NCBI GenBank assembly: GCA_903913285.1
Contig: CAIWKO010000037.1
Coordinates: 1-64,000, forward strand
Length of the DNA: 64,000 nucleotides
Direction of reading: 5' to 3'
Origin: an uncultured Bacteroidales bacterium
GTDB taxonomy: Bacteria > Bacteroidota > Bacteroidia > Bacteroidales > CAIWKO01
The translations under genes and the position numbers were made by a program. This document shows positions 10,752 to 53,876 of this stretch, piece by piece. The notes under the pieces were generated by a model. It did not search any database, had not been told where the DNA came from, and was given only the letters and a program-made list of their open reading frames with translations. Within the stretch, counting starts at the first letter, position 1; each line of letters opens with the position of its first letter.

Positions 10752-10783
10752 AAAAAAAGGACAGCAAAAGCTGTCCTTTTTTT
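10752..10783 (+). terminator. Rho-independent terminator, potentially bidirectional
   Basis: GGACAGC and GCTGTCC with an AAAA loop are flanked by seven A upstream and seven T downstream. It ends the threonine operon. Confidence 0.92.
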
Positions 10784-10839
10784 ATGACCGGAACAAATAT
10801 TAAATCATTAAAGGTAAATTCGGGAAGCACTATTTATAA

Positions 10840-21270: not shown

Positions 21271-22488
21271 CTATTTAATTTGATTTAATAACATTCCTGG
21301 TTGAAAATCCCCTCCGCTTACTTTAACAAAAGTTGTACGGTCGTTGCCATTTTCTTTAGCTTGCTCTTCTGCAAGCATATATCTGTTATCCCATATTTTG
21401 TTATTATCCACTTTAACAACTCCAACTTTTTTATAAAAGGTTTTACCATTTTCATCGATGTTTTTTTCCAGAACTTCAAATTTTTCACCAGCTTCCAAGC
21501 CTTCTTTCTTCCCTATTTTTGCTGTTAGCGGTTCAACAGTTAATAAAGGTGTTTTCGTTTTGAACTCGTCATGATTTTTTTGAAGTTTTGAAATAACTTC
21601 ATCAACAGCTCTGTGTGTGGCTCTTACAACAAGTTGCTCATCACTTTTATTTGTAAATATAGAGGATTGAACATCGCAATAAGCTTGGTCAGTGCCTACA
21701 AATTCAAGTGTAAAAAGGGTTGAAACATCAAAATCTTTAGCTTTATTAATATCAAAAGTTGCTTCATCTGTCCAATACTTAGTATAAAAAGTATTAGCAA
21801 TTTCGTCATTCCATTTTAAACGATACAAATAGGCAATAGATCTCACTCTATATCCTTTCCCTAAAATATCAGCTCCAGTATTAGCTACAGAAACGACCTG
21901 TGAAGCACCAGATACACCAGCAGCACTGGCAATACTACCGAGTATTCCAATTGTTTTCTTCGCTTTTGCAGCATCATCTGCTTTATCATAATATTTAAAA
22001 TGAGACACCAAAACAAAAGTATTTGCTATAAGTTCCTCGCCTGCATCTGCCAATAAGGCTATGCCTCTTTTATTCAATTTAGCTTTATTAACGTCAATGT
22101 CTGAGGCATTATAAAATCCTCTTGCAGAAACAAGATCCATATTAAAGGTACCTTTTTCGCTTCTGTTAAACCATTTTGCAATCATTTTTTTTGCAACGTC
22201 GTTTGCTTTTAAATAATTTTCAATATTCGGTTGTTGGGTTTTAACTTTTTTCCCGGATTGATACGGTATTTTTCTAACACTTAAATTGTGATCATTAAAT
22301 TTATCAAGTGCATTAAGCTCGATAAAAGTACTCTCAATCTTATCACTAAATGGCATGCTGGGGTTAACAGTCATAAGAGTGTATAACGAACTCCTGTGAT
22401 ATTTTTCGCCAACATTTGAATTAGATGGATTTTGTGCAAAACCCACAAATGAAACAATGAACAATAAAAAGAATAAGGTTTTTTTCAT
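21271..22488 (-). CDS. Secreted protein with FlgT-like C-terminal domain, 405 aa
   Basis: A signal peptide (1-18, ending VGFAQ) is followed by a helical region with GFYNASDIDVNKAKLNKRGIALL and LIANTFVLVSHFKYYD, where the latter resembles a CsgG/FlgT-type strand. The C-terminal ~90 residues (LTAKIGKKEGLEAGEKFEVLE, KKVGVVKV, TFVKVSGGDFQPGMLLNQI) match the small beta-barrel of FlgT and related proteins. It leads the five-gene minus-strand cluster and is preceded by the same hairpin/leader module as the CsgG-like gene at 2108. The cluster may form an outer-membrane or periplasmic assembly; this is inference from fold resemblance only. Confidence 0.6.
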   Translation of the reverse strand: MKKTLFFLLFIVSFVGFAQNPSNSNVGEKYHRSSLYTLMTVNPSMPFSDKIESTFIELNALDKFNDHNLSVRKIPYQSGKKVKTQQPNIENYLKANDVAKKMIAKWFNRSEKGTFNMDLVSARGFYNASDIDVNKAKLNKRGIALLADAGEELIANTFVLVSHFKYYDKADDAAKAKKTIGILGSIASAAGVSGASQVVSVANTGADILGKGYRVRSIAYLYRLKWNDEIANTFYTKYWTDEATFDINKAKDFDVSTLFTLEFVGTDQAYCDVQSSIFTNKSDEQLVVRATHRAVDEVISKLQKNHDEFKTKTPLLTVEPLTAKIGKKEGLEAGEKFEVLEKNIDENGKTFYKKVGVVKVDNNKIWDNRYMLAEEQAKENGNDRTTFVKVSGGDFQPGMLLNQIK

Positions 22489-22536
22489 AATGATTTGAAT
22501 TTAATTTTCTTACTCATCTGGCTTTTCAGTTCCGCC

Positions 22537-22612
22537 CCGTTTTTTAAATGGTTTCTGGTCTCCACTTTTATTTTATAAAAGCAATAGCCCCACCCAAAGC
22601 AAAACTATCACT
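22537..22612 (-). repeat. Shared hairpin-plus-leader module, copy 2
   Basis: Read on the minus strand, the hairpin (22612-22580; AGTGATAG paired with CTATTGCT) follows the gene ending at 22655, and the leader (22580-22537) with GTGGAGACCAGAAACCA precedes the gene starting at 22488. The leader is identical to copy 1 (2036-2078) over about 30 bases and similar over about 42. The hairpin arms have diverged but still pair using G-U. Confidence 0.7.
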
Positions 22613-22654: not shown

Positions 22655-23623
22655 TCATTTCGGCGAAACCACCGGAGCCGTATCTGCCGCTTCCAGCAAA
22701 AACTGCAAAGCCGTGGTCTTTCCGGCCTCTATCGTAAAATCAAACTCAATATCCTTATATCCCTCCATCATAATCTTTCCGTGAAACGTTCCCGGCTTAC
22801 ATCCGTCATTATAGCCTTCCCCGTCCTCATCCGTTGTGTCCGAAATACCCAATGCCGTAACAACATAACTGGCTCCTGCTGCCGGGCCCATCGATGCTTT
22901 AAACAACGCCATCAGTTCCAGTATTCCCGTGGTAGTTTCCGGGTCAACCACCTTGGGTTTCCGTTTCAAATGGTGATGCCGCACCTTACGTGCTGCCAGA
23001 TAAGCCAGATAAAGCGCCACCATGGCAACCTGATAAATCTCCATAAATGGGTCCATCTCATCATCAAAAAACTTCTTTATAGTTTTCAAATGATTCTCCC
23101 ACTGTTTCATATCAAGTGCATGTTGCTTAATAACATCCTGTGGCAATTTCGCCATAGTGTCTAGCTTGGCTGCCAGAGTGGTCAAATTTGTTGTGTAGGG
23201 CACATCAATCTTATAATCTGCCAAAGGAGTTTTATTGGCTGTTATCAATCCCATTATCACTGCAATATCATTTTGCAGATCAACTATGGGTGTTCTCAGC
23301 AAATTCGAATAAGTATACAGTGTTTTCAAACCTGTCAATTGTGCATCGCCTGTTTTCACTCCGTATGCACTCATGGCCGAAGCCGTAACGCTGAAATTCA
23401 CAGCCACAACCTCCTTAATATCCACACCGGCTATCGTAAATTGCTTCGACGATTTTGCCAATTTAAACTCCCAGTCTTTAGCTGTGGTCAACAAATCACC
23501 TACCGTATCAAAAAAATCCGATGTTGCTGTCGTTCCGCTTATTTCGGCCTGATAATCCGGATTACTTTTCATTGCATAAACTCTGTTTAGCATTTCAATC
23601 GTATAAATTCCTGAATCGTTCAT
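22655..23623 (-). CDS. Helical cytoplasmic protein with C-terminal beta domain (array-associated family)
   Basis: This 322-residue protein has no signal peptide. Residues ~1-235 are almost all helical, with an early LNRVYAMKSNPDYQ, a hydrophobic VAMVALYLAYLAARKV helix and a basic RHHHLKRKPKV stretch. A C-terminal beta segment (GTFHGKIMMEGYKDIEFDFT, EAGKTTALQFLLEA) ends with APVVSPK. The protein at 45986 has the same plan: helical body, an aromatic-x-x-Ala-Arg motif followed by basic residues, a carboxypeptidase-regulatory-like beta domain and an APVV tail. Both have a 21-nt-period repeat array just upstream. I know of no function. Confidence 0.6.
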   Translation of the reverse strand: MNDSGIYTIEMLNRVYAMKSNPDYQAEISGTTATSDFFDTVGDLLTTAKDWEFKLAKSSKQFTIAGVDIKEVVAVNFSVTASAMSAYGVKTGDAQLTGLKTLYTYSNLLRTPIVDLQNDIAVIMGLITANKTPLADYKIDVPYTTNLTTLAAKLDTMAKLPQDVIKQHALDMKQWENHLKTIKKFFDDEMDPFMEIYQVAMVALYLAYLAARKVRHHHLKRKPKVVDPETTTGILELMALFKASMGPAAGASYVVTALGISDTTDEDGEGYNDGCKPGTFHGKIMMEGYKDIEFDFTIEAGKTTALQFLLEAADTAPVVSPK

Positions 23624-23740
23624 AATGTTTAATTTTTAATGGTATTTATTATTACTTTAACTAATTAACTTTCAATCAATAAAAACAATAACGCTTCCTT
23701 CCTTCATCATAAATCCGTATTCTAACAACTCATTCTTCTG

Positions 23741-24213
23741 CTCATGTATATAACATTTCTGCTCGTTCATTTAACCTTTTCGCTCAATCATAACACATTT
23801 TTGTTCAATCATAACATTCCGAATCTCATTCATAAACTTTCCTATCTCATGCAGCCAAACTTTCAGCTCGTTCATAAAGTTCTTCGGTTCGTTCATTTAA
23901 ATCTTCAGCGCTATCATTCATGCCTTTGCTCATGTATAACACATTTTTGCTCGTGCATAACGTTTCCAAGCTCGTGCATAACACATTTTTGCTCGTACAT
24001 AACGTTTCCAAGCTCATGCATAACACTTTTTTGCTCATGCAGCGTATACTTTTCCCGTTCATTTCATTCTTCAACACAAACATTCGACTTTTCAGGCCAA
24101 TCATGCGACATTTCACGCCAATCATGAAACATTTTAGCTCGTGCAATTGACATTTTACGCCAATCATGAGACATTTCATACCAATCATGAAACATTTTAG
24201 CTCGCGCAATTGC
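23741..24213 (-). repeat. Degenerate 21-nt-period tandem array upstream of the helical-protein gene
   Basis: About 22 contiguous units, nearly all 21 bases with occasional 20 or 22. On the plus strand most units begin CTCATGC, CTCGTGC, CTCGTTC or AATCATG. Units alternate between CATAACGTTTCCAAG and CATAACACATTTTTG endings at 23930-24040. Because units are multiples of three and lack stops, several frames stay open. A 187-codon minus-strand frame (23847-24410) covers most of the array but stops inside it, and encodes Met/Cys-rich heptads such as SLETLCT and MIGVKCR. Whether it is translated is unclear. Confidence 0.75.
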
Positions 24214-25041
24214 TTCCTAAAACAAAAAATTGAATTAAAAGAATTCTGTACTATAAAAAGATTTTCTGGAAGTAAAAGTTTTCTGGGTGTTAAAGATTCT
24301 TCCTCAGCTAAAAAATTGGCATTAGCAAATAAACGATTATTTCTTTTTGTAAAAACCTTTAAAGTCTTACTGAAAAAATTTAAACCAATCTGAAAACTCA
24401 ACTTCATCATTTGATTTATTTTTATTAGAATGCCGCAACAAATTACGTTTATAAATTATTAAAAAACAAGAATTAAAAATTAGAATATTTTAATTGCACA
24501 TATAAACAGATTAACGTTTAAAATCTGCATAAAACGTAACTTTATATTGATATTGTATAATTTTGGCATCTTATATAGAGCCGAATCGAATATGCTAAAA
24601 TTATTAAAATAATTTAGTAATATTTTTGTCTTTTCTACCTAAAAAGAGGGATATTGATATTTATAGGCGTAACATTCAATAAACTGAAATTGAAAGTTAA
24701 TTAACTCATCTTCAGAAGATTTTAATATTTTCTTCGTACAAAATATACAATAATTAGTACTATGATGGGGTTAGAAAAACCGATTTTTTCCTCCACCAGT
24801 AATTGATGCTTTAAAATTAAAAAATATTTAACAAAATAAATGTAAAAATAATTTTAATAATACAGCAGAAGTAGATATTTTAGAACATAAGTTTCCGTAA
24901 TTTGAAGTATTATTTATGTGGTTAGAGTTTTCTTATACAGTCTACAGTATAAACCCCTAACGCCCTAAATCATTGCTCGTGGCTTTTGGCTAACTCCCAA
25001 CTCTAGGCAATCTTCAAACTTTAGGCACTTCCTCCTCGTAT
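24214..25041. other. Long AT-rich spacer with orphan promoter-like sites and a heptamer repeat
   Basis: No convincing gene is present. TAATTTTG at 24558-24565 (plus strand) resembles a -7 element without an obvious downstream gene and could serve a small RNA. At 24975-25030 the sequence breaks into 7-base words (GCTCGTG, GCTTTTG, GCTAACT, CCCAACT), reverse complements of words found at 55175-55234. The rest is low-complexity AT. Confidence 0.5.
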
Positions 25042-45382: not shown

Positions 45383-45462
45383 GAAAGGGATTTGAGCAGA
45401 GAAATTTATAAAAACACAAAATGACCATAGGAATGGCTAGTGTTGCAACGGAAACGAAAATG

Positions 45463-45735
45463 GAGGCATTGGAAATGACACGGGAGGCATTGGAAATGAC
45501 ATGGGAGGCATTGGAAACGGTTCGGGAGGCATTGGAAACGGTTCGGGAGGCATTGGAAATGGTTCGGGAGGCATTGGAAATGGTTCGGGAGGCATTGGAA
45601 ATGGTTCGGGAGGCATTGGAAATGATTCGGGAGGCATTGGAAATGGTTCGGGAGGCATTGGAAATGGTTCGGGAGGCATTGGAAATGATTCGGGAGGCAT
45701 TGGAAATGGTTTGGGAGGCAATGGAAATGGAAATA
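45463..45735 (+). repeat. 21-nt tandem array, 13 units, all frames open
   Basis: Thirteen contiguous 21-base units built from the 7-base words GAGGCAT, TGGAAAT and GGTTCGG. Variation is mostly at one or two positions. On the plus strand one frame encodes heptads EALEMVR (open frame 45421-45783, 120 codons, beginning MTIGMASVATETK). A second plus frame reads GGIGNGS and one minus frame reads PMPPEPF. The array ends 250 bases before the gene at 45986. It may be a short coiled-coil-coding gene or non-coding DNA; the unit length forces open frames either way. Confidence 0.85.
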
Positions 45736-45736
45736 G

Positions 45737-45799
45737 GGTATTTGGTATCTGGTAGCAGGTATATGGTCAATGGTATCAGGTAGATGGTATCTGGTAGTC
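45737..45799. repeat. 7-nt-period repeat tract directly after the 21-nt array
   Basis: Nine 7-base words all starting GGT: GGTATTT, GGTATCT, GGTAGCA, GGTATAT, GGTCAAT, GGTATCA, GGTAGAT, GGTATCT, GGTAGTC. Confidence 0.75.
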
Positions 45800-45985
45800 T
45801 GTAAAAAAAGTTAAATAATGTTAAAAATGCGTTTGGAAGTAAAATATTGTTTATAGGCGTGCAATAATTGTTTTTATATATCGTTATTAGATTAAACGTC
45901 AAAATTGAAATGCTTATGATTAAATTTTACTCTGATGTATCGGGAGATATTTCAGTAATTTATGTTTAATTAAAAATAGGAAGTC

Positions 45986-46945
45986 ATGAGACGTACTAGA
46001 AGTAACGAAGTTCAGATGATGAAGGTCGTTAAAGCAGTTTTGGTCACGTTTGCAACTCTGGTTGCAGGCATTCCGGCATTAGCAGCTCTGGCCGCTGCCT
46101 TCGGGGATATACTCGATGGAATTGATGCCGCTACCCTTAAAGCCGAAGCCATTAAGATTGGCATGCGGAAGAAAAAGAAAATGAATAAACTGAATCTCGC
46201 GAGTATTGCCTCGAAAGTGGCCAATGCCATTTTTGCATACGGCAATGACAGCAGTAACCCTGAAATGGCTTATGAAGCCAATTACCCTGAGTACAAGCTG
46301 AAGAAAATGAAAGACATTAAGCTTGTAAATATTTGTAAAGACATACTCCTTATCGGGCAGGCCAATAAGACCGCCCTGTTAGATTACGGAATCAACCCAG
46401 CAGACCTGACAAATCTGGATGCCGCTATCACCGTTTTTGATGCCATCATCCCTGCTTCGCAACAAGAGATTGATGACCATAAAGACCTGATGGAAACTAT
46501 AGACGCGCTGGTTAGAGAAGGACTGAGCCTGATGAAACTGAAGATGGACCGCGTGGTGAAAGTTGCCGCAGATGCCAACCCTGATTTTTCGAGCCATTAT
46601 TTTAAGGCGAGAGCGATAGACGATTTTGTGGGGAAACGCAGAAAAGTAAAGCCTATAACAGGTACCGGAATTTTGTTGGGAACGGTTACGAACAGCGTGG
46701 ACGGCAGTGTGATAGAAGAAGCCACGGTGATGATCGTTGAGCTGAATTTGGTGGTGACCACGGATGAAGATGGAGCGTATTATTTTGAAAGTGTGCCCGT
46801 GGGAAATTACACAGTGCGGGTTACGGCGGCTACCTATCTGGAAAATACGGTTAAGAATGTTGATATAACCAAGGACAGCGAGGTTACACTGGATTTTGCT
46901 CTGGATGCTGATCTGAGTGCACCAGTTGTTCCTTTGGGTAGCTAA
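45986..46945 (+). CDS. Helical protein with C-terminal carboxypeptidase-regulatory-like domain (array-associated family)
   Basis: This 319-residue protein starts with a basic segment and a hydrophobic stretch (AVLVTFATLVAGIPALAALA, residues ~14-34) that does not look like a cleavable signal. Residues ~50-225 are helical, with VFDAIIPASQQEIDDHKDLM and HYFKARAIDDFVGKRRKVKPI. Residues ~228-305 form a carboxypeptidase-regulatory-like beta domain (GTVTNSVDGSVIEEATVMIV, TTDEDGAYYFESVPVGNYTV), ending in LSAPVVPLGS. The plan parallels the protein at 22655-23623. A 21-nt array lies upstream and a 7-nt tract begins inside its stop codon. Function unknown. Confidence 0.65.
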   Translation: MRRTRSNEVQMMKVVKAVLVTFATLVAGIPALAALAAAFGDILDGIDAATLKAEAIKIGMRKKKKMNKLNLASIASKVANAIFAYGNDSSNPEMAYEANYPEYKLKKMKDIKLVNICKDILLIGQANKTALLDYGINPADLTNLDAAITVFDAIIPASQQEIDDHKDLMETIDALVREGLSLMKLKMDRVVKVAADANPDFSSHYFKARAIDDFVGKRRKVKPITGTGILLGTVTNSVDGSVIEEATVMIVELNLVVTTDEDGAYYFESVPVGNYTVRVTAATYLENTVKNVDITKDSEVTLDFALDADLSAPVVPLGS

Positions 46946-46990
46946 TTACCAGTTATTAGTTATTAGTTACGAATTACTAGTTACTAGTTG
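46942..46990. repeat. 7-nt-period repeat tract overlapping a stop codon
   Basis: Seven 7-base words: CTAATTA, CCAGTTA, TTAGTTA, TTAGTTA, CGAATTA, CTAGTTA, CTAGTTG. The first includes the TAA stop of the gene ending at 46945. Confidence 0.7.
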
Positions 46991-47217: not shown

Positions 47218-48066
47218 ATGGGTTATGAATTAAATACTGATGCTTATCGCCTTTTTATTCAAATTGAAGTTGGTATACGTGAATTTTTGATTGATTTAAT
47301 AAAACAAAAGGGTGTTTTTGAGTGGTATACTAATTTTCTTGGTCAATTTCAAAGAGAAGCGATTAATGTTATTATAACCAGAATCCAGAATGCTAAGAAA
47401 AGGAATGTGCGACCATCAATTGAAGATCAGTTTCAATATAAATTAAATAGGGTTATTAAAGATAATTATTTAGGATTGAAATGTGAAGACTTATACCATC
47501 CTTTCTATTATTTAAACTGGCCAGATATGGAGATGGTCTTGAATAAAAAAACAAATACCGATTTAATTGAAAATGTAATTGGTAAAAAAAACAGGGATGT
47601 TGTAAGTAATAATTTAAAATTACTCAATGAATTAAGAAATCATATAGCACATTCTCGTTTTATAACTGAAGAAGAATTTGTAATAATTAAAAGTGCTTTT
47701 GAACAGATATCGGCAGTTATTCCAAATTTCAATAAATATTATAATAATCAAACAAAAGAAGACAAACTTGATGTCTTGCTAAAGAAACTTAGAAATTTTA
47801 TCAATACTATTTGTGCCGAAGACATGATTTCAATACCACAAATTGAAGAATTTGACTATTGTATAAATATGTGCTTAAATTCATTTTGGTTGAATTCTCT
47901 TTATCCCGAAATTATTGAAGATTTAAGTAAATTGAACTCCGAATTGAATAAATATAAATCTTTTCGATCATCAATTGGAGGCATAATGCCAATTATAGAT
48001 TGGAAAAAAAGAAACACAACGTTATTTTGTAACATTTTAAATAAAATAGAAAATGGGGAAATTTGA
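47218..48066 (+). CDS. HEPN-domain protein (Swt1-like type), partner of the overlapping ATPase
   Basis: The 282-residue protein is helical and cytoplasmic. At residues 136-150 LNELRNHIAHSRF carries the HEPN R-x4-H motif (Arg140, His145), preceded by YHPFYYLNWPDMEMVL as in Swt1-type HEPN domains. HEPN proteins are often RNases in toxin-antitoxin, CRISPR or abortive-infection systems; here catalytic competence is inferred from R-x4-H. The last 14 bases overlap the ATPase gene start, so the two are translationally coupled. Base composition is very AT-rich compared with the surrounding core genes, which suggests horizontal acquisition. Confidence 0.75.
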   Translation: MGYELNTDAYRLFIQIEVGIREFLIDLIKQKGVFEWYTNFLGQFQREAINVIITRIQNAKKRNVRPSIEDQFQYKLNRVIKDNYLGLKCEDLYHPFYYLNWPDMEMVLNKKTNTDLIENVIGKKNRDVVSNNLKLLNELRNHIAHSRFITEEEFVIIKSAFEQISAVIPNFNKYYNNQTKEDKLDVLLKKLRNFINTICAEDMISIPQIEEFDYCINMCLNSFWLNSLYPEIIEDLSKLNSELNKYKSFRSSIGGIMPIIDWKKRNTTLFCNILNKIENGEI

Positions 48067-50413
48067 CATTAACCCTTTTGACCGATCTGCTTTAAGGGAT
48101 TATAAATTGCTTGCTGGTCGAAAAAATGAATTTAATTTAATTCGTTTTAAGTTAAGGAATTCTTCTAAGAATAATGGTCGCTTTAATATTATTATTGCAG
48201 GTAACAGAGGAGTTGGCAAAACAAGTTTCCTTAATTTAATTGAGGGCGAATGTCCAACAAACAATATTATATCTGTGCGAATAAACTTAACGGAGGCAAA
48301 TTCTGCAAATGCGAATGAATTCTTTTGGCACGTATTTATTCAGACATTAAATACTCTATTTGAATATAATTTATTTGGTGGCACTGGTGGTGAAATAGAT
48401 AAAGCTGTTCAATCAATACTACATTCTAATGGTATTGAAGATCAGGCAAACTGGGTATTTCGGTCACCTATTCTTCGCCGAAATTATTTATTAAGTTCAT
48501 CATGTCCGTATGAATCTGAACAATTCATTTCAGATATTAAGCAATTTCACAAAGGAATTATTAATTCAGACAATGATAATTTTAATAAAAACACCAAAAT
48601 AGTATATTTGATTGATGAATCACATCACATATATTCAAAAATACAAGTTATTGAACAAATAAGATATATTGTGCAACACCCAGATCTAAAAATAGGTTTT
48701 GTATTTGCAGGAGATAATAGTTTTGAAAATAGTAAATGGGAAAGTGAATTTGGCGGTTCTTGGAGAGATTTTGAAATAATTAATTTAAATTATTTTGACA
48801 ATGTTGAATCCGTAATTGACTATTTCAGGAAATCACTAGATTATATTGGATGGACTGAAAATGAAATTGAGGATACATTGTTCTTTAGATTTAAACGTGC
48901 ATGTACACAAATTTTTCAACTGACTTCAGGTAAGCCTTCGTGGATAAATGCTATTGCCAAAAAGATGTTCGAAAGATGCATGAACGGTGAGTCAAATATT
49001 CTTAGATTTGACAGATTGGCTCAAAATGATGTTAAGAATTTACTTGAATCGACAAATCTGTTGGATTCATCTAAAATTGATTTTATAGATAATTTGAGCA
49101 GAAATTATTATAAGTGGTTAACCATGATATTCGACTGTGAATATACTACGCTTAATCAGGTTTATTTCTTTGGCAAATTTATTTTTATTGATGATAATTT
49201 TTTAGATAAAGAATCTTATGCAGAGTTCTGTCAGACTTTATTGGAAAGAGGAATAATCTATCAAGAGACATCTGAAGACAAACTTTCAGTAGGCTATATG
49301 GCAAATCCTCCATTAACCAATATTTTAGATAAGCAATACATAGCATTTGGTTATAATACTGATACTATTAAGCAATGGTTACAAATAACAACTGATGGTA
49401 AAGTCAAATTCAGATCATTAATACCCGATGTCTATTTTATGTTTTACATAAATGATAGATTAATAACGGAAAATATTAATTGCTCACTATATAGATATGT
49501 TACACCAAGCGCATCCTATTCTAGAATTATTGATACAATAAATAAAATTAACAATGATAGCTTTGACGTTAATGAAATAAATTACGAAGATACGAAAGCA
49601 CTTTATGATCTATTCAAAATGATAATAAATTCAAAAGAGAAAGAGATTTTGTATGGTGAAATGGAATTTTTATCTTCAGGAAAAAAGATTAATTGGAATG
49701 TTTACAATTATGATGAAAAGAACAAGCTAATACCATTTCATGATTCTCCTAAAACAATATGTAAATTTATTGATAATGTTGCGTCTTATAATTCTGAATC
49801 TAATAGCTATGAATTTAAGCTTTCTATAGACAAATTACCTGTTCCTGATATTTCGAAATTCCAAAAATTAATTATTTCTTCTAATGATAAGAAAAAGTAT
49901 GGTGTAATTTTTGAAGACAAATTAAATGATTTGGTAGATCATTATGTAAAAGAATCAAACCTAGATTCATCTCATAGTCTCGCAATGTTCTTCTATGAGC
50001 GATATTATGATGGTTTTGATTTGAATATAAGAATGCTTAATAATTCTTCATATATTTTTATTGTAAAAAATGAATTTGATAAAGCAATTGACCTACTAAA
50101 AGAAGCATATAGAAAATTCCAAATGGATGATCTTGACAAATATGATTTAATGGGTATGGGGCTGATTTTTTATAATTTAGGTATTGCCAACTTTAAGCTT
50201 AACAATATAATAAAATCTAAGGATTACTTTGAATCATTGATTGAATATAGCGCAGATAAGGATAAAGAATTATTCGATGCACAGATCTTATATGTTTTAC
50301 AAAAAGATGCCTCCAATAATATTATATCAATTGAAATTAAAGAAAATGAAAAGGAATATCCTGTTATAAATATTATTGAATTTGCAAAAAGCAACTTGGC
50401 TATTTTAGAATAA
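48053..50413 (+). CDS. P-loop ATPase (STAND/AAA_16-like) with C-terminal TPR-like region
   Basis: A 786-residue cytoplasmic protein. Walker A is IIAGNRGVGKTSFL (~48-60) and Walker B is KIVYLIDESHH (~182-192), followed by a sensor-like IGFVFAGDNSFENS and GSWRDFEIINLNYFD, an Orc1/Cdc6- or STAND-like arrangement. A helical middle, a mixed ~400-600 region and a C-terminal TPR-like segment (LMGMGLIFYNLGIANFKLNN, SKDYFESLIEYS) follow. The TPR-like end is the sort of region that senses a trigger in STAND proteins. Overlap with the HEPN gene suggests the ATPase controls the HEPN effector. Defence against phage is an inference from this architecture. Confidence 0.75.
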   Translation: MGKFDINPFDRSALRDYKLLAGRKNEFNLIRFKLRNSSKNNGRFNIIIAGNRGVGKTSFLNLIEGECPTNNIISVRINLTEANSANANEFFWHVFIQTLNTLFEYNLFGGTGGEIDKAVQSILHSNGIEDQANWVFRSPILRRNYLLSSSCPYESEQFISDIKQFHKGIINSDNDNFNKNTKIVYLIDESHHIYSKIQVIEQIRYIVQHPDLKIGFVFAGDNSFENSKWESEFGGSWRDFEIINLNYFDNVESVIDYFRKSLDYIGWTENEIEDTLFFRFKRACTQIFQLTSGKPSWINAIAKKMFERCMNGESNILRFDRLAQNDVKNLLESTNLLDSSKIDFIDNLSRNYYKWLTMIFDCEYTTLNQVYFFGKFIFIDDNFLDKESYAEFCQTLLERGIIYQETSEDKLSVGYMANPPLTNILDKQYIAFGYNTDTIKQWLQITTDGKVKFRSLIPDVYFMFYINDRLITENINCSLYRYVTPSASYSRIIDTINKINNDSFDVNEINYEDTKALYDLFKMIINSKEKEILYGEMEFLSSGKKINWNVYNYDEKNKLIPFHDSPKTICKFIDNVASYNSESNSYEFKLSIDKLPVPDISKFQKLIISSNDKKKYGVIFEDKLNDLVDHYVKESNLDSSHSLAMFFYERYYDGFDLNIRMLNNSSYIFIVKNEFDKAIDLLKEAYRKFQMDDLDKYDLMGMGLIFYNLGIANFKLNNIIKSKDYFESLIEYSADKDKELFDAQILYVLQKDASNNIISIEIKENEKEYPVINIIEFAKSNLAILE

Positions 50414-52781: not shown

Positions 52782-53876
52782 TTAATAATAATCTATTTCA
52801 CACTCTGTAATTGTTTCTTCAATACCATTATAAAATGCCGTCTCCATTATCCAGTTACCTGTCTTATCAAAATCATATTTCTTTGTATGTTTTTCCAAAA
52901 TAAGCCAGCCAGAATTTAGTTCTTTCTCTTCTTGAATAGATCGTAAATCTTTCCATTCTTCATTGTAAAAGGTATCATAATCATAATTATTTTTCTTATG
53001 TCCTAAACGTTTTTCTTCTATTAAATTTCCATTGTCATCAAATTTGTAAATATCTTTTGTCAATAAATCGTTTTCTAAATCGTATCTTTTTTCCTCAATA
53101 ATATTCCCTTTTTTGTCTACTATATAAAAATAATTATTTAATAATTTTCCTTTTTCTTCTTGCTTTTCTTCAAGCATGTTTCCTTGTTCATCATAGCAAA
53201 ATATATTTCTTTTTAATAAAACCCCATTTTCTTCTTGCTTTTTTTCAAGTATATATCCTTTATCATCATAGCAAAATGTATTTCTTTTTAATAAAATACC
53301 ATCTGAATTATAGCCATTTTCCTCTATCTTATTTCCTTTTTCATCATAATTATAAGTATATTTAAAAGTCAAACACCCGTCTAACTTATAAAATCTTTTT
53401 TCACTAATAGTCCCATTGTTACTAAATTCATAAATACTTTTTAAATTTAATTTACTGTTGGCTTTATAATTTATCTCTTCTGTTTTATTTCCTTTTTCAT
53501 CATAACCAAATGTATTTTTATAAATTAAACTACCATCCGATTTATATTTGCCATTTTCAATCATATTCCCATTATCATCATACCTGTAACTAATTTTACA
53601 CCAAAATCCATAGTCAGAATTAAAAGAATTCTCCTCAATTATTTTTCCATTACCATCATAAATACAAGTACGTTTATAAGTTGAATTGTTTTCCAAATTG
53701 GAAGTATTCTCCTCTATTATATTTCCATTGTCATTAAAAGAATAATTATTAATAAAAAATTCTTTATCACATTTTCGAGTTTCCCCTAATCCATCTACGT
53801 CCTCGAAACGATATGCTTTTCTTTTTAAATTTCTTATTTTTCCAATTAGTTTTAGCTCAACAAGATCGTTTTTCAT
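52782..53876 (-). CDS. Cytoplasmic YD-like repeat protein
   Basis: The start is set at 53876 (MKNDLVELKLIG); the ten codons upstream are low-complexity. The protein has no signal peptide and no secretion tail. It consists of about eleven repeats of ~24-28 residues with the core YDEKGNKIEE-x-x-Y-x-x-DG, similar to RHS/YD hairpins. Repeat units sometimes duplicate closely (LLKRNTFCYDDKGYILEKKQ and LLKRNIFCYDEQGNMLEEKQ). It is AT-rich like the island genes. A beta-helix-like scaffold is likely; no toxin domain is seen. Function unknown. Confidence 0.7.
   Translation of the reverse strand: MKNDLVELKLIGKIRNLKRKAYRFEDVDGLGETRKCDKEFFINNYSFNDNGNIIEENTSNLENNSTYKRTCIYDGNGKIIEENSFNSDYGFWCKISYRYDDNGNMIENGKYKSDGSLIYKNTFGYDEKGNKTEEINYKANSKLNLKSIYEFSNNGTISEKRFYKLDGCLTFKYTYNYDEKGNKIEENGYNSDGILLKRNTFCYDDKGYILEKKQEENGVLLKRNIFCYDEQGNMLEEKQEEKGKLLNNYFYIVDKKGNIIEEKRYDLENDLLTKDIYKFDDNGNLIEEKRLGHKKNNYDYDTFYNEEWKDLRSIQEEKELNSGWLILEKHTKKYDFDKTGNWIMETAFYNGIEETITECEIDYY

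Follow-up and report, generated by a model that had tools for sequence, protein, structure and literature searches.

Helically phased tandem arrays beside genes of multi-copy helical proteins in the Bacteroidales

Two tandem arrays of the window and their genes

The window, that is, the whole stretch of 64,000 nucleotides analysed here, carries two degenerate tandem arrays with a period of 21 nucleotides, each upstream of a gene for a protein with a helical N-terminal part (Table 1). The first array forms a lag-21 run of 464 nt, or 22.1 units, in which 59.8% of the bases are identical at lag 21. Its score is 122.6; in 200 Markov shuffles of positions 23500-24500, no lag from 8 to 99 scores above 21.2. 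An array of about 22 units had been claimed in the preliminary description of this DNA, with the bounds 23741-24213; the array is there, and the measured run is 23736-24199 instead. The units had been called mostly 21 bases long, with alternating subtypes. Tandem Repeats Finder (TRF) returns a period of 21, together with a period of 42 for two parts of the array, which corresponds to the alternation, and the register slips locally at some points, in keeping with the word "mostly".

The array was said to lie just upstream of the gene at 22655-23623, and 112 nt separate its end from that gene's start codon. No consensus Bacteroidota promoter is recognised in this 112-nt stretch. As had also been described, the minus-strand frame over part of the array stops within it, and no frame in the sense of the gene is open over the entire array. 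The second array, which ends 189 nt before its gene, has the same period of 21 and the same type of neighbour that had been ascribed to it: the two window proteins are paralogues, with 62 of 243 aligned residues identical (26%).

Table 1. Coordinates of the arrays, genes and adjoining stretches in the window
Feature	Position	Strand	Basis or remark
21-nt degenerate tandem array, about 22 units	23736..24199	- (sense of downstream gene)	Lag-21 score, TRF
Stretch from array to start codon, 112 nt	23624..23735	-	
Gene of a 322-aa helical protein with C-terminal CarboxypepD_reg-like domain	22655..23623	-	Domain below Pfam cut-off
Open frame over part of the first array, judged to be no gene	23847..24410	-	No Pfam match, stop inside array, class without codon periodicity
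Second 21-nt tandem array	45445..45796	+	TRF core 45462-45730; score 246.4, at most 21.8 in 200 shuffles
Stretch from array to start codon, 189 nt	45797..45985	+	Alike in paralogues L008-L011
Gene of a 319-aa paralogue, helical part with CarboxypepD_reg domain	45986..46945	+	PF13620 above cut-off

Both window proteins are built of two parts. The N-terminal one is modelled as helical, with low confidence, and the C-terminal one is a transthyretin-like (CarboxypepD_reg) domain. AlphaFold gives a usable model of the two window proteins for the C-terminal domain only (mean pLDDT 47.6, with the helical part below 50), and the best Foldseek matches fall on that domain. Matches of the window proteins in Pfam are confined to C-terminal beta-sandwich families and weak chance matches. 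No Pfam model matches the helical part, and its best E value in profile searches of the PDB is 0.03. A known DNA-binding domain was not found in family proteins by Pfam and related searches. Over the first 215 residues, net charge averages just +1.0.

Some further features of the window can be mentioned. An Rfam DUF805 RNA (RF03081, 83.5 bits) occupies 22503-22570 on the minus strand, directly 5' of the minus-strand gene 21271-22488. Behind the second family gene, at 46942-46989, there are short heptamer-like repeats of the form TAGTTAN (TRF periods 7 and 21), and other repeats are found by TRF at 768-1317 and 53152-53321, with periods of 93 and 75. At 47218-50413 on the plus strand, a DUF3644-like protein (below the Pfam cut-off) is directly followed by a KAP/AAA-type P-loop NTPase, a pair with the appearance of a candidate anti-phage defence module. 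The window also encodes a type IX secretion sorting domain (PF18962), which points to the Bacteroidota.

Distribution of the arrays and the adjoining families

When one window protein is used to search its own genome, 10 matches are obtained. Nine of these have an upstream 21-nt array and one (L012) has none. A profile search places the helical part at 33 positions in the same genome, among the matches listed, and further profile searches find it in other genomes of the genus, in other families and then across the order. No relative was found in the viral contigs and phages searched. One window protein searched has no phage match, and matches to plasmid records cover at most 24% of it. A search of genome contigs gave four matches, to the C-terminal domain only. 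The neighbouring genes look chromosomal by eye.

The flanking DNA up- and downstream of the fetched loci was scored with one run-scoring rule over all lags 8-99. Counting genes with at least 250 nt upstream, which leaves 10 loci with less out of the total, an upstream array is present in 112 of 149 family genes from 37 genomes and a downstream array in 18 of 137; four of the 18 have periods that are multiples of 21 (21n). The best upstream period is 21 in 70 genes, 42 in 19, 63 in 8 and 84 in 3, so that 100 of the 112 are exact multiples. Nine others have periods of 20, 22, 43, 62 or 85, and three have some other period. In the window's own genome 33 genes were found, three of which have less than 250 nt upstream and are not scorable; 27 of the remaining 30 have an upstream array at 21n or 21n±1.

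The proportion can be followed through the ways in which loci were gathered, near copies being left out in each case. Upstream arrays are present at 55 of 67 loci from the own-genome search and the profile search of the genus and other families, at 15 of 22 loci that are the best match per genome of the order-wide profile search, and at 40 of 58 loci picked from the order-wide match list. The first set was picked among listed matches with the helical part, with flanks unseen at picking. The picked order-wide set is part of the listed matches and was chosen after the best-per-genome scoring, its own flanks then being unseen. Occupancy is low in two genomes, G219 (1/5) and G057 (1/4). One repeated locus (L222, a repeat of L159) was dropped from the association table, and L133-L137 and L139, already in the set, were not rescored. 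Two near copies, L069 (of L066) and L084 (of L073), are in the 149 and in the set of 70 arrays used for codon periodicity, and are left out of the later harmonic statistics. L066 and L069 both lie at contig ends and may be one locus assembled twice.

The arrays thus have a preferred neighbour, as the preliminary description had suggested: 27 of 30 in the own genome, and 112 of 149 upstream over 37 genomes compared with 18 of 137 on the downstream side. The association is not an exclusive one: there are more arrays than family genes, and two more protein families have arrays of this kind. In 20 stretches of the own genome (G000; 352 kb) taken regardless of arrays, there are 12 arrays at 21n±1. 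Two of them (L118, L115) immediately precede family members identified by profile, and one (L127) lies upstream of a look-alike of which only the C-terminal part matches a member (tblastn E 0.002). Another (L130) stands immediately 3' of a 234-aa protein without a Pfam match, L121 is gene-less, and the remaining arrays have no recognised partner. The genome G197 has 17 arrays in 400 kb, and those stretches hold one family match. In G002, of the same genus, there are no arrays in 212 kb and no helical-family match in the sampled contigs; a profile search of the whole genome gave 8 matches, and the one listed is to the C-terminal domain. These counts in control DNA indicate that arrays are more numerous than known partner genes.

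In G197, whose genome is a single contig, arrays adjoin two other families that are helical by eye. DUF6261 (PF19775) has an upstream array at 25 of 30 loci and a downstream array at 2 of 30, among the matches listed in 19 genomes. The periods are 41 (14 arrays) and 42 (8), then 43, 63 and 83. The units are often palindromic, with a fold z below -2 in 15 of 25; examples with 41-43-nt, often palindromic and locus-specific units are L263, L268, L276, L279 and L284. A Pfam match to DUF6261 is found neither in the two window proteins nor in their own genome, and homology with the window family is unsupported by hhalign (probabilities of 0.8% and 7.5%).

A third family (alignment A6; for example L324, L325 and L340) occurs in 15 of 149 genomes, the own genome included. 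The two pieces of it scanned have no Pfam match. Of the 30 loci listed, 27 were scored; L326, L328 and L338, which are fragmentary, were left out. In this family the arrays lie downstream of the stop codon (18/25) and seldom upstream (2/26), and all 18 downstream periods are 21, 42, 63 or 84. Each family thus prefers one side, two of them upstream and one downstream, which favours reading the array as a partner site of the module, and as more than a part of its promoter.

Promoters of the Bacteroidota type have the motif TTG-N17-22-TAnnTTnG. Of 87 gaps separating an array from its start codon, 19 contain a match to it (6.5 expected), compared with 2 in antisense (4.7 expected). The -7 element is present within 150 nt before the array in 20 of 85 cases (7.8 expected). 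The full motif lies 150-400 nt before the array in 8 of 79 (3.5 expected) and, in antisense, in 10 (5.1 expected). Since promoter motifs are raised before the arrays, transcription into an array is possible.

Coding capacity, RNA structure and helical rhythm

The arrays were compared through the variability of each position of the unit, whose spectrum was set against column permutations, a null that does not preserve smoothness between adjacent columns. Over 94 arrays from 27 genomes, z is 10.1 at 10.5 bp, 5.8 at 21 and 0.0 at 7. The share of the 10.5 harmonic is alike in 43 same-genus arrays (0.186) and 51 others (0.182). Bootstrapping places its ratio to the 7 harmonic at 1.44-2.45, and its power exceeds that at 7 in the per-genome average of 21 of 27 genomes. 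It is not significantly above the share at 21 (interval -0.015 to 0.073).

A fold of 21 nt can show only periods of 21/n, so arrays of other lengths provide a sharper test. Fifteen 42-nt arrays, 10 of which belong to the 94 as well, reach z 11.2 at 10.5, with -2.0 at 14, -1.4 at 8.4 and a lesser peak of 3.1 at 7; the five outside the 94 give z 6.9 at 10.5. For nine 63-nt arrays, all of them among the 94, z is 6.4 at 10.5 and reaches 5.6 at 21. The peak lies at 10.0 in two arrays of 20 nt and at 11.0 in two of 22 nt, and a single 43-nt array has no clear peak. In the other families, 25 DUF6261 arrays (period 41-43) have a variability peak at about 10.35 bp (z 6.7, next 3.3), to which their palindromes may contribute, and 17 downstream arrays of the third family give z 3.5 at 10.5, L317 being too short and left out. 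In ten arrays of the own genome that have no gene beside them, the signal at 10.5 is weak (z 2.3) and is exceeded by that at 7 (3.2).

In the window, the second array has a 10.5 share of 0.195. The first has a share of 0.054 as a whole (0.1 expected) and a mean of 0.125 when cut into four register blocks, none of which reaches p<0.05. The 10.5-bp signal is a property of the class, and the first array alone does not show it. Conservation every 10.5 bp means conservation on one face of the double helix, and it is very probable that helical phase is under selection.

A rhythm of 10.5 nt would also be expected if the arrays coded for a coiled-coil heptad peptide, since seven codons make 21 nt and the a and d positions are 3.5 residues apart. 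Some arrays do contain long open frames (111 aa in L130; 45421-45783 in the window), and open sense frames number 37 in 70 arrays compared with 24.7 in column-permuted controls. Heptad coding was rejected on several grounds. The variability of unit positions is not 3-periodic: only 2 of 70 arrays have p<0.05 (mean p 0.56), and in 94 arrays there is a deficit at period 3 (z -2.4). No frame is open on either strand in 33 of 94 arrays, 14 of which have a single stop in the best frame, and in these 33 the 10.5 signal is kept as strongly (z 5.9). The rhythm also persists where each unit shifts the frame, as in the 20- and 22-nt arrays and in the 41-nt arrays that make up 16 of the 25 DUF6261 arrays. 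A peptide is therefore an extremely unlikely explanation. The preliminary description had held that the first array is not explained by one protein, and the absence of a conserved coding frame bears this out for the class. The arrays are almost certainly non-coding DNA elements.

Another possibility is that the arrays act as RNA. In type III toxin-antitoxin systems such as ToxI/ToxN, a tandem array lies upstream of one gene and provides structured RNA repeats of about 34-39 nt. The layout here is the same, with a tandem-repeat array followed by a single gene, the promoter-like motifs before the arrays leave room for transcription into them, and the palindromic units of many DUF6261 arrays could fold. 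An antitoxin-like or sponge RNA is nevertheless very improbable. For either strand, the folding of the 94 21-nt arrays is no stronger than that of column-permuted controls (mean z 0.11 sense, 0.09 antisense), so the RNA structure of ToxI is lacking in them; the downstream arrays of the third family and the 10.5-bp rhythm also speak against it. No Pfam match to a ToxN/AbiQ-like endoribonuclease is found for the window proteins or among the 25 families listed for 64 members.

General dyad symmetry is likewise not found in the 21-nt arrays (mean z 0.21, SE 0.11, with 7 of 94 above 2). Intrinsic curvature by A-tracts was considered and rejected, as A+T content has no peak at 10.5 (z -2.1, 68 arrays). 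The A+T share is slightly higher in conserved patches (0.66) than in variable ones (0.56), an excess that mutation bias alone might produce. Two regularities of composition are recorded as side observations. Within the units of 94 21-nt arrays, self-similarity is strongly depleted at a shift of 8 nt (mean/SE -7.0) and raised at 6 nt (3.2), and keto bases have a rhythm of 5.25 nt (z 7.3, 68 arrays).

Unit turnover, proposed mechanism and known systems

The consensus of the unit varies from locus to locus, and no shared motif among the consensus sequences is obvious on inspection. Where proteins are more than 90% identical, unit similarity is 0.64 on the same strand and 0.43 on the opposite strand. 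At 50-60% protein identity the values are 0.36 and 0.33, and below 20% they are equal. Turnover can be seen directly in close pairs. The arrays of the orthologues L073 and L084 (99% protein identity) agree unit by unit. Those of L078 and L086 (98%) have been wholly replaced in concert between closely similar flanks, which argues against simple sequence-specific recognition. The paralogues L009 and L010 differ by a single contiguous block within nearly all of their units. Strict co-evolution of unit and protein was rejected, for although similarity falls with protein identity, L078 and L086 contradict a tight link.

Phase appears to outlast the letters. In L169 the score is 177 at lag 42 and 9 at lag 21, and in L172 it is 207 and 22; such 42-nt repetition, where a shift of 21 nt yields hardly any similarity or none, suggests that phase can outlive sequence. 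Duplications of any length are possible, yet 109 of the 112 upstream periods are 21n or 21n±1, so phase persists.

Arrays also occur as copies apart from a gene. At L121:10760-11366, shortly after a tRNA-Lys gene (10760-10833), the L006 array and its leader recur as an 85% identical copy without a gene, as if arrays could be copied alone. L002 matches the first window array at 76%. Both cases would suit neutral minisatellites, in which slippage or unequal exchange turns units over in concert and a mutational process yields lengths of 21n, and so would the drift of periods to 20, 22, 43, 62 and 85. Neutral evolution leaves unexplained the side specific to each family, the occupancy of 27 of 30 genes in the own genome, and conservation at about 10.5 bp inside units of 20 to 63 nt. 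This explanation is unlikely.

The arrays may alternatively be phased platforms for a general chromosomal DNA-binding protein or other trans factor, with the helical gene as one regulated or insulated neighbour. The excess of arrays over family genes fits this (G000, 12 arrays in 352 kb; G197, 17 in 400 kb with one family match), as does unit turnover beside a 98% identical protein, which would suit a factor that reads phase and not letters. Against it, inspection of the unit consensus sequences reveals no obvious common motif. A general factor would have no need of arrays mostly on one side in each of three families, and the sampled part of G002, which is without family matches, is also without arrays. 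This explanation is given a low probability, similar to that of neutral evolution.

The preferred explanation is that the array is a non-coding, phased, protein-binding DNA element, most likely bound cooperatively by the linked protein; taken as a whole, it has about an even chance. A row of protein-binding sites agrees with conservation on one face, with spacing by whole turns and with the replacement of units in concert, and binding by some protein is probable. The linkage of arrays on a side specific to each family makes the linked protein the first candidate. That the linked protein is the binder is a somewhat weaker proposition, falling just short of an even chance: the lack of a recognised DNA-binding domain, the near-neutral charge (+1.0) and the turnover between L078 and L086 speak against it, as judged from sequence.

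In the proposed mechanism, the array would act as double-stranded, non-coding DNA with binding sites two helical turns (21 bp) apart on one face. It would be paired in cis with the gene of a multi-copy helical protein family, whose product would bind its own array cooperatively and form an autoregulatory or scaffold complex. Cooperative contacts along the face of the DNA would outweigh exact letters. Selection would then keep helical phase, leaving the letters of the unit private to the locus and replaceable in concert. A complex upstream of the promoter could provide autoregulation, and the downstream arrays of the third family suggest a wider role as a scaffold or mark. It is possible, though tentatively proposed, that these loci represent an undescribed class of chromosomal modules. 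Several multi-copy helical families would each be tied in cis to an array of fixed phase and private letters, giving dozens to more than 100 individually addressed platforms per chromosome, which may organise or mark the chromosome or set the expression of the module.

The closest known systems are found on plasmids. Iterons are direct repeats of about 17-22 bp, placed whole helical turns apart beside the gene of the Rep initiator that binds them. The arrays resemble them as direct repeats at whole helical turns (21, 42, 63 or 84 nt in 100 of 112) with a 10.5-bp rhythm. They differ in numbering dozens per genome, in having units private to the locus, and in the lack of a Rep or winged-helix domain among the searches made; no plasmid record covers more than 24% of the one window protein searched. 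In plasmid centromeres (parC or parH with ParR- or Omega-type proteins), phased direct repeats adjoin the gene of the binding protein. The arrays share this arrangement with respect to a candidate binding protein, and they differ in having many copies per genome and in the build of the protein, a helical part with a transthyretin-like domain. In the subset of window neighbours scanned there is no ParA or ParM match; about 1.1 kb beyond the second gene there is the KAP/AAA-type P-loop NTPase. The array may work somewhat like iterons or parC-type centromeres, but on these features it is not identified as either. CRISPR arrays are unlike it when the units are read directly, as the units here abut, vary along their length and have no unique spacers.

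Among chromosomal repeats, the BrickBuilt element of Porphyromonas gingivalis is a minisatellite/MITE with one 23-nt unit, a leader and a tail, and 19 copies in one strain (PMC4596501). It is similar in being an intergenic minisatellite with many copies per genome and a comparable length of tandem unit. It differs in that its abstract names no linked gene family (PMC4596501), while the present arrays have locus-specific units of 21n nt and linked protein families. They also lack a single common unit, similarity being 0.36 on the same and 0.33 on the opposite strand at 50-60% protein identity. DUF6261 is alike as a multi-copy family with helically phased upstream arrays, mostly of 41-42 nt, and unlike in its often palindromic units and in having no own-genome match.

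No description of such a locus was found among the literature matches listed, which include PMC4596501 and PMC4060949, in a search that excluded preprints and most subscription papers. The type of locus is new as far as the searched literature goes. If binding is true, it would represent the principle of the phased operator in a new form, without a fixed sequence.

If the mechanism is true, evolution conserves the geometry of the DNA, namely the face of the helix, and discards the letters at dozens of loci per genome. It would provide the first functional lead for DUF6261 and two unnamed families, and a natural test bed for phase-dependent cooperative DNA binding. With the rule of periods (21n, or 41-42 with palindromes), the modules are readily located.

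The modules may also account for the ends of contigs at such genes in draft genomes. In the own genome, contigs C32, C33, C43, C45, C46, C65 and C66 end in or near a family gene or array, which suggests that the modules may break assembly.
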